DNA of 64,000 bases from Tsuneonella litorea (GTDB lineage: Bacteria; Pseudomonadota; Alphaproteobacteria; Sphingomonadales; Sphingomonadaceae). Of this stretch, positions 5,958 to 6,101 are shown in pieces. The first letter of the stretch is position 1, and each line of letters opens with the position of its first letter. The DNA lies in NCBI RefSeq assembly GCF_025154015.1, contig NZ_JAOAMV010000002.1:521896-585895 (forward strand), in the 5' to 3' direction. The position numbers and the translations under genes were made by a program. The notes beneath the pieces were generated by a model. The model did no database searches and was not told the origin of the DNA. It worked only from the letters and a program-made list of their open reading frames with translations.

Positions 5958-6101
5958 GATTCAAGTTATCCACAGGGTGAGTCCTCGCGGACTCCGCGTC
6001 AAGCAGGGAGTTTGAACGAATATGGTTAACGCCGGCTCACTTTCGACAGAACAGAAGGTGTCCGCCACAAGATGTTGAGTCTGCGCGGAATCGCCTGACT
6101 C
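5958..6101. promoter_or_regulatory. ccrM control region: six GANTC sites, a DnaA box and a CtrA half-site
   Basis: The gap between ccrM (start at 5950, leftward) and the small gene at 6115 holds six GANTC sites: GATTC 5958-5962, GAGTC 5979-5983, GACTC 5990-5994, GAGTC 6077-6081, GAATC 6088-6092 and GACTC 6097-6101. Within each triplet most spacings are near one helical turn. It also holds a perfect DnaA box TTATCCACA (5966-5974) and, on the ccrM strand, TTAACCAT (6029-6022), the CtrA half-site. In Caulobacter, ccrM is known to be activated by CtrA and to respond to GANTC methylation in its own promoter; control by DnaA here is my inference. Confidence 0.7.

Follow-up and report, generated by a model that had tools for sequence, protein, structure and literature searches.

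Upstream of the ccrM gene of Tsuneonella litorea, seven GANTC sequences lie within 173 bp, and one of them stands at a fixed distance from a TTGAC. This TTGAC-N14-GANTC register was present upstream of ccrM in 196 of the 269 loci compared, versus two matches in 963 kb outside these regions; one of the two (locus L031) is shaped like a ccrM promoter located farther upstream. Sites and register are observed facts, as are the conservation of the register and its near-absence elsewhere in the loci examined. We read the block as a methylation-gated promoter of ccrM with negative feedback, in which RNA polymerase itself would do the reading, at least in part; our opinion on this reading as a whole is evenly balanced. 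That CcrM regulates its own production is likely from the arrangement of the sites.

The window analysed is a stretch of 64,000 nucleotides (contig NZ_JAOAMV010000002.1). Its minus-strand ORF 4814-5950 contains the N6_N4_Mtase and C-terminal RAMA domains (Pfam PF01555, 8.8e-67, and PF18755, 6.8e-20), and its top NCBIfam match is CcrM, with 604.5 bits, under the 830 cut-off of that model, which may have been set on closer Caulobacter sequences. By these matches the gene is a CcrM-type GANTC adenine methyltransferase. The start of this ORF, MMKMGV (5939-5950), probably includes three codons too many: many family loci align only from query residue 4 onwards and have a start codon there, so that the ATG at 5941 is the more likely true start. 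Among the best 80 of 376 matches, the nearest named relative is Tsuneonella troitsensis, with a CcrM at 91%. GANTC is reported as the most abundant methylated motif in a Sphingomonas methylome (PMC8067484), so that methylation is shown for another member of this order.

The seven GANTC are located at 5958, 5979, 5990, 6077, 6088, 6097 and 6126 (block 5958-6130). A preliminary description of this DNA had listed the first six, which are all present, and had overlooked the seventh. Its background of about one GANTC per 300 bp was too high: GANTC is avoided in the window, which holds 97 sites in 64 kb (one per 660 bp) versus 321 from dinucleotide shuffles. When the 97 sites were placed at random in 20,000 runs, 7 runs produced six or more sites in 144 bp, and no run produced seven or more in 173 bp. 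Outside the block, any 200-bp stretch of the window holds three GANTC at most; this statement on density extends to the 64-kb window and to the loci that were fetched. The only other pair in the window with 4-6 bases between its sites is at 45422-45436 (GAATCCACGCGAATC). An Rfam search of 5700-6500 with E up to 1 gave no match, and folding of the block as single-strand DNA revealed no special structure (z -0.29).

The conservation of the block was examined in three sets of loci. All 119 family genomes proved to contain CcrM; 110 of these loci were examined, the other nine genomes not having been fetched. The class set first comprised 67 ccrM loci and was then enlarged to 86. Most were taken in order of match quality, which leaves the most divergent CcrM genes under-represented, and 12 of the 19 additions were picked because GcrA was not found. 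One locus from the class search (L111) was left out of both class and family counts. The third set, named loci, derives from the best 80 of 376 matches: two were dropped for having less than 200 bp upstream, and a further five of the 78 because the family set already included them, which left 73 loci, all close relatives. The loci are related to one another and the counts are thus not independent.

Between -300 and +30 of ccrM, at least one GANTC is present in 110/110 family loci and at least four in 100/110, with a mean of 5.85 per 330 bp upstream versus 0.294 in an equal length of gene body. In the class, GANTC is missing from the 300 bp next to ccrM in five of the first 67 loci. At L274, the ccrM of genome G301, there are twelve GANTC within 300 bp upstream; no GcrA match is listed for this genome. 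The preliminary description had made its reading of a ccrM control region depend on conservation in related genomes, and the GANTC block proves to be kept across the family and partly across the class. That reading is therefore supported in part: it holds for the GANTC block, while the CtrA and DnaA sites that it also contained are real and restricted in distribution.

The positions of the sites are conserved as well as their number. Measured from the TTGAC, the conserved family slots are -128, -99, -89, -79, -60, +8/9 and +19, and the window retains every one of them except -60. Most slots also have a fixed orientation. On the ccrM strand the sites at -127 to -130, to which the seventh window site (6126..6130) corresponds as slot -128, are GAGTC in 68/68 cases, and those at -98 to -100 in 55/59; GACTC is found in 53/54 sites at -78 to -80 and in 38/38 sites at -60/-61. 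The slot at -88 to -90 has a mixed sequence, and its occupancy across the family, where the window has 6088..6092 (-89/-90, near the centre of the dyad described below), is mixed too. Nearer to the gene, +8 to +10 is filled by 88 sites (88/110 loci) and +19 by 86 sites, 72 of them GACTC; both slots are filled in 70/110 loci. The anchor used for this slot table favoured a TTGAC with a GANTC after it, and the unbiased figures are those given below, in which every TTGAC is counted. Altogether GAGTC or GACTC make up 535 of the 643 upstream family sites, versus 14/98 in gene bodies; in the window their share is 24/97. CcrM accepts any middle base, and such fixed orientation thus suggests that the GANTC slots are read by proteins besides CcrM. 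The units of the array are slots counted from the TTGAC rather than the triplets of GANTC first proposed, since the site at 5958..5962 is an extra copy in the predicted leader, seen again in the same-genus locus L002, and 6126 belongs to the conserved set.

The register itself, the main feature of the region, had been missed in the initial inventory of features. TTGAC is present within -300 to +30 of ccrM in 108/110 family loci, and a GANTC stands exactly at +19, every TTGAC being counted, in 85/110 family and 34 of the first 67 class loci, compared with a mean over all TTGAC-GANTC offsets of 3.69 and 2.64. The 34 class loci are spread over 29 families. Gene bodies, which hold just 24 (family) and 19 (class) TTGAC, contain no such pair. 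The register is also present in 73/73 of the additional named loci (best 80 of 376, close relatives), and was not found in 25/110 family and 48/86 class loci. Outside the family the second commonest offset is +8. A second GANTC occurs 8, 9 or 10 bases after the TTGAC in most register loci: 69/85 in the family, 29/38 in the class and 67/73 in the named set (best 80 of 376). Among the titles listed from the open-licence literature none describes the register, which may be in print elsewhere.

The bases that follow the +19 site suggest what the register is. An A at +24 and a T at +28 from the TTGAC are found in 38/38 class register loci, neither base having been used in the selection (the class register loci number 38, or 37 with the following letters on a slightly shorter stretch). 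We predict from the register that TTGAC(G) is a -35 box and that the hexamer CANNNT, 17 bp on, is a -10 box. In the window these would be TTGACG (5997..6002, minus strand), the anchor of the register, and CACCCT (5974..5979, minus strand), in which A-11 and T-7 are the conserved positions. A-11 is present in 84/85 family register loci and T-7 in 62/85; among the named loci (best 80 of 376) the counts are 73/73 and 38/73, and the hexamer is CATGCC in 31/73. A GANTC is present between the two predicted boxes: the GAGTC at +8 (5990..5994, minus strand) lies inside the predicted spacer. The GACTC at +19 (5979..5983, minus strand) appears to cover promoter positions -16 to -12 and to run into the -10 box, its last C being the first base of the predicted hexamer. 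The predicted -10 of ccrM is poor, and a scan of 5850-6250 for consensus promoters and terminators returned none, a sigma-70 promoter included. A second promoter within the dyad was considered and dropped, since, read by eye, the GACTC at -79 has no suitably spaced TTGAC.

If these boxes are correct, the methylated adenines of the +19 GANTC would lie at the point of recognition and opening of the -10 region by sigma, and full methylation would weaken the opening of the ccrM promoter. Once the fork has passed, the site would be in a hemimethylated, permissive state until CcrM, active again, shut the promoter, a product feedback timed by replication. Where a genome has GcrA, as here, GcrA may add to the reading by RNA polymerase. 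The sign of the feedback is the weakest step of this mechanism. According to a modelling paper, hemimethylated DNA is the only form from which ccrM is transcribed in Caulobacter (PMC2217572). The gcrA promoter of Agrobacterium drives a different gene from ccrM, but it too is a cell-cycle promoter with densely clustered GANTC, six in number. Methylation is reported to lower its activity, in E. coli as well, where alphaproteobacterial factors are absent (PMC11514494), which makes it a precedent for direct repression by methylation. Against a fixed negative sign, methylation is reported to activate the Caulobacter ftsZ and mipZ promoters, which have GANTC between the boxes or near the start (PMC3708114). 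GANTC between -10 and -35 has also been linked to activation that occurs 40-60 min into the Caulobacter cycle (Zhou 2015, PMC4287350).

The main rival to direct reading by RNA polymerase is a promoter activated by GcrA, in which sigma-bound GcrA reads the methylated GANTC and raises ccrM transcription in a positive loop; we hold it to be somewhat unlikely. In its favour, GcrA contacts sigma-2 (PMC7403470) and its footprint on fully methylated ctrA P1 covers -35 to -10 (PMC3667746), and a weak predicted -10 would suit an activator. The genome of the present strain encodes GcrA (C28:195386-196006, E 1.1e-23). Furthermore, ccrM was predicted to belong to the core targets of GcrA throughout the class (Adhikari 2021, PMC7987155), in an analysis that made no use of site position; this control seems lost in Caulobacterales (same source). 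The distribution of the register tells against this rival. PF07750 matches were found in 125 of 192 class-sample genomes, 123 of them above the cut-off, and for 14 of the first 67 genomes with ccrM even E up to 10 gave no match above the cut-off. The register is present in 25/60 loci with GcrA and in 13/26 without detectable GcrA (Fisher p = 0.49), absence being judged with one Pfam model in six frames of partly draft genomes, and for 12 of the 26 only at E up to 0.001. One genome with a match below the cut-off (G119) was counted with GcrA; if it is moved, the counts become 24/59 and 14/27 (p = 0.36). For the first 67 class loci they are 24/53 and 10/14 (p = 0.13). As far as the sensitivity of the search permits, the register is thus about equally common with or without GcrA, so that GcrA does not explain its conservation and RNA polymerase itself becomes the likeliest reader. 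A weaker objection is that the promoter-proximal sites, examined by eye, depart from the GcrA motif YGAKTCK: they read GGAGTCC and GGACTCA, the latter being TGAGTCC on the other strand and differing at the last base. This motif is not general, the preference having been reported as not found in Brevundimonas (PMC7987155).

The GcrA-dependent promoters of Caulobacter (ctrA P1, mipZ, ftsZ) resemble the ccrM promoter in having GANTC between or near the boxes, and methylation is reported to change their transcription. The ccrM promoter differs from them in that its register is about as common without detectable GcrA, in the absence of YGAKTCK from the proximal sites, and in that it controls the gene of the methylase. 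The usual view is that GcrA reads CcrM marks, and the persistence of the register where GcrA was not detected makes direct reading by RNA polymerase testable. We tentatively extend our reading to an ancient alphaproteobacterial promoter type, which we regard as possible, though not probable: a CcrM site would be fused to the ccrM -10 (TTGAC-N14-GANTCANNNT), RNA polymerase would read the mark without GcrA, and the Sphingomonadaceae would have added a methylation counter of typically 5-7 sites and an operator for a ccrM-specific regulator competing with CcrM. The question bears on how alphaproteobacteria outside Caulobacter hold CcrM within limits. Methylases of restriction-modification systems of the CfrBI type are reportedly autoregulated, a methylase site in the control region tuning the expression of the system. 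Unlike these, CcrM is an orphan cell-cycle enzyme, with several sites and conservation across much of the class.

The upstream part of the array contains a dyad. Its right half, CACAAGATGTTGAGTC (6066..6081, plus strand), contains the GANTC at 6077 and is the commonest half-site of the PWM set (57/133); its left half, CACACCCCACGATGTCGAGTC (6097..6117, minus strand), contains the GANTC at 6097 (slot -99). The arrangement of GAGTC and GACTC separated by 14 to 16 bases occurs in 69/110 family loci, in 5 of the first 67 class loci and in 64/73 named loci (best 80 of 376). The right half extends to CACAAGATRTTGAGTC. With one mismatch permitted in AGATRTT, this half-site was found in 56/110 family, 9/86 class and 65/73 named loci (best 80 of 376), and was not found in 242 kb of gene body. 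The 12-base core, AGATGTTGAGTC, occurs exactly once in the 3.03-Mb genome, at the ccrM dyad. All minus-oriented half-sites of the family and named sets (102/102) take one of three positions relative to the TTGAC (-68/-69, -78 to -81 or -89 to -91), which differ within the family by steps of about 11 bp or one helical turn. Such whole-turn shifts would be expected of a protein that must face RNA polymerase. The dyad likely binds a ccrM-specific regulator whose site holds CcrM targets, and so points to a regulator of ccrM beyond those named.

A stronger version of this idea takes the upstream array to be chiefly an operator. A dimeric regulator dedicated to it would have the half-site CACAAGATRTTGAGTC, with GANTC included by coincidence; methylation would prevent binding and binding methylation, so that an epigenetic switch would operate locally, and the sites proximal to the promoter would be secondary. 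The conservation of the half-site, which reaches far beyond GANTC, the uniqueness of the core and the one-turn steps all agree with it, as does the GANTC occlusion known for MucR and, on a synthetic promoter, for CtrA (PMC5172544). We nevertheless consider this version improbable. The promoter-proximal register is wider spread (38/86 class loci) than the half-site; the nine class half-sites are in the other orientation only, scattered from -84 to -35 with no clear phasing; and the dyad has no known binding protein. Concerning phasing in general, the sites had been described as spaced for binding on one face of the DNA. For the seven window sites this was rejected at 10.5 bp per turn (Rayleigh p about 0.10; 0.13 at 11.0, and about 0.025 if 10.0 is chosen). 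The part that stands is found across the family, where the shifts of about 11 bp of the dyad and of the CtrA half-site relative to the TTGAC support phased binding.

Caulobacter ccrM is activated by CtrA according to older experiments. The present region carries one perfect CtrA half-site, TTAACCAT (6022..6029, on the ccrM strand, minus), and one perfect DnaA box, TTATCCACA (5966..5974, plus strand), over the predicted start site; both had been noticed earlier, and each is the sole perfect copy in the window. By eye, no second TTAA at the distance of a full TTAA-N7-TTAA CtrA site was found in the window. TTAACCAT is present in 37/110 family loci, versus 0.14 expected from shuffles, and in 37/73 named loci (best 80 of 376). 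In the family, 20 copies lie at -26 to -28 from the TTGAC, 15 at -38 to -40 and 2 at -43, the two main clusters being about 11 bp apart; the other 73 loci have no TTAACCAT. The DnaA box, as TGTGGATAA, is found in 43/110 family loci and in 71/73 named loci (best 80 of 376), all close relatives. Within 70 bases of the TTGAC it is present in 40 of the closest 51 family loci and in 1 of the other 59. Both sites are real, the CtrA half-site being far above shuffles, and restricted in range, the DnaA box being mostly that of one clade and the CtrA half-site that of about a third of the family loci. DnaA bound at TTATCCACA would be expected to block transcription, and in the lineages that have them the two sites would adjust timing.

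The published Caulobacter ccrM shares with the present region GANTC in the control region, a proposed feedback by methylation and the involvement of CtrA (PMC2217572, PMC2877005). It differs, as published, in the fixed TTGAC-N14-GANTC-A-N3-T register, the up to seven sites and the upstream dyad found here. GANTC had been counted by Brilli 2010 (PMC2877005), who predicted that DnaA controls ccrM chiefly where there are no CtrA sites; control by methylation is not derived there. A perfect DnaA box adjoining GANTC sites would also fit DnaA titration or a secondary replication element. We judge this explanation very improbable, since there is a single perfect box, at +28 from the TTGAC in 35 of 41 cases and mostly in one clade, to which the GANTC register is not confined. 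Chance or base composition is a negligible explanation, refuted by the conservation and also by the clustering and the register counts.

The surroundings of the gene were also considered. Downstream of ccrM lies folP; upstream are an 83-aa ORF on the opposite strand (6115-6366, plus) and then rnhB (6363-6992), detected upstream of ccrM in 81/110 family loci. No restriction gene was found among the four neighbouring ORFs tested (folP, the sulfotransferase remnant, rnhB and a glucose/sorbosone dehydrogenase). The array accompanies ccrM irrespective of rnhB: its mean is 5.94 sites in the 81 loci with rnhB in the fetched upstream DNA, and 5.59, with a minimum of 3, in the 29 loci without it. Control by or for the divergent 83-aa ORF was rejected, as the ORF is matched in the fetched DNA of 6/110 loci, the window's own included, and GANTC is present in 110/110. 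For the gcrA gene of the same genome, the first GANTC upstream is more than 1 kb away (L282, C28:195000-197500), versus six reported in Agrobacterium; another ORF overlaps the start of this gcrA, and its promoter may sit farther off. The 83-aa ORF corresponds to the final part of a Sulfotransfer_4 domain and looks like a decayed remnant, most of the gene being gone. At the same place the same-genus locus L002 has a 272-aa divergent ORF with a matching end, and L179 a similar long open frame.
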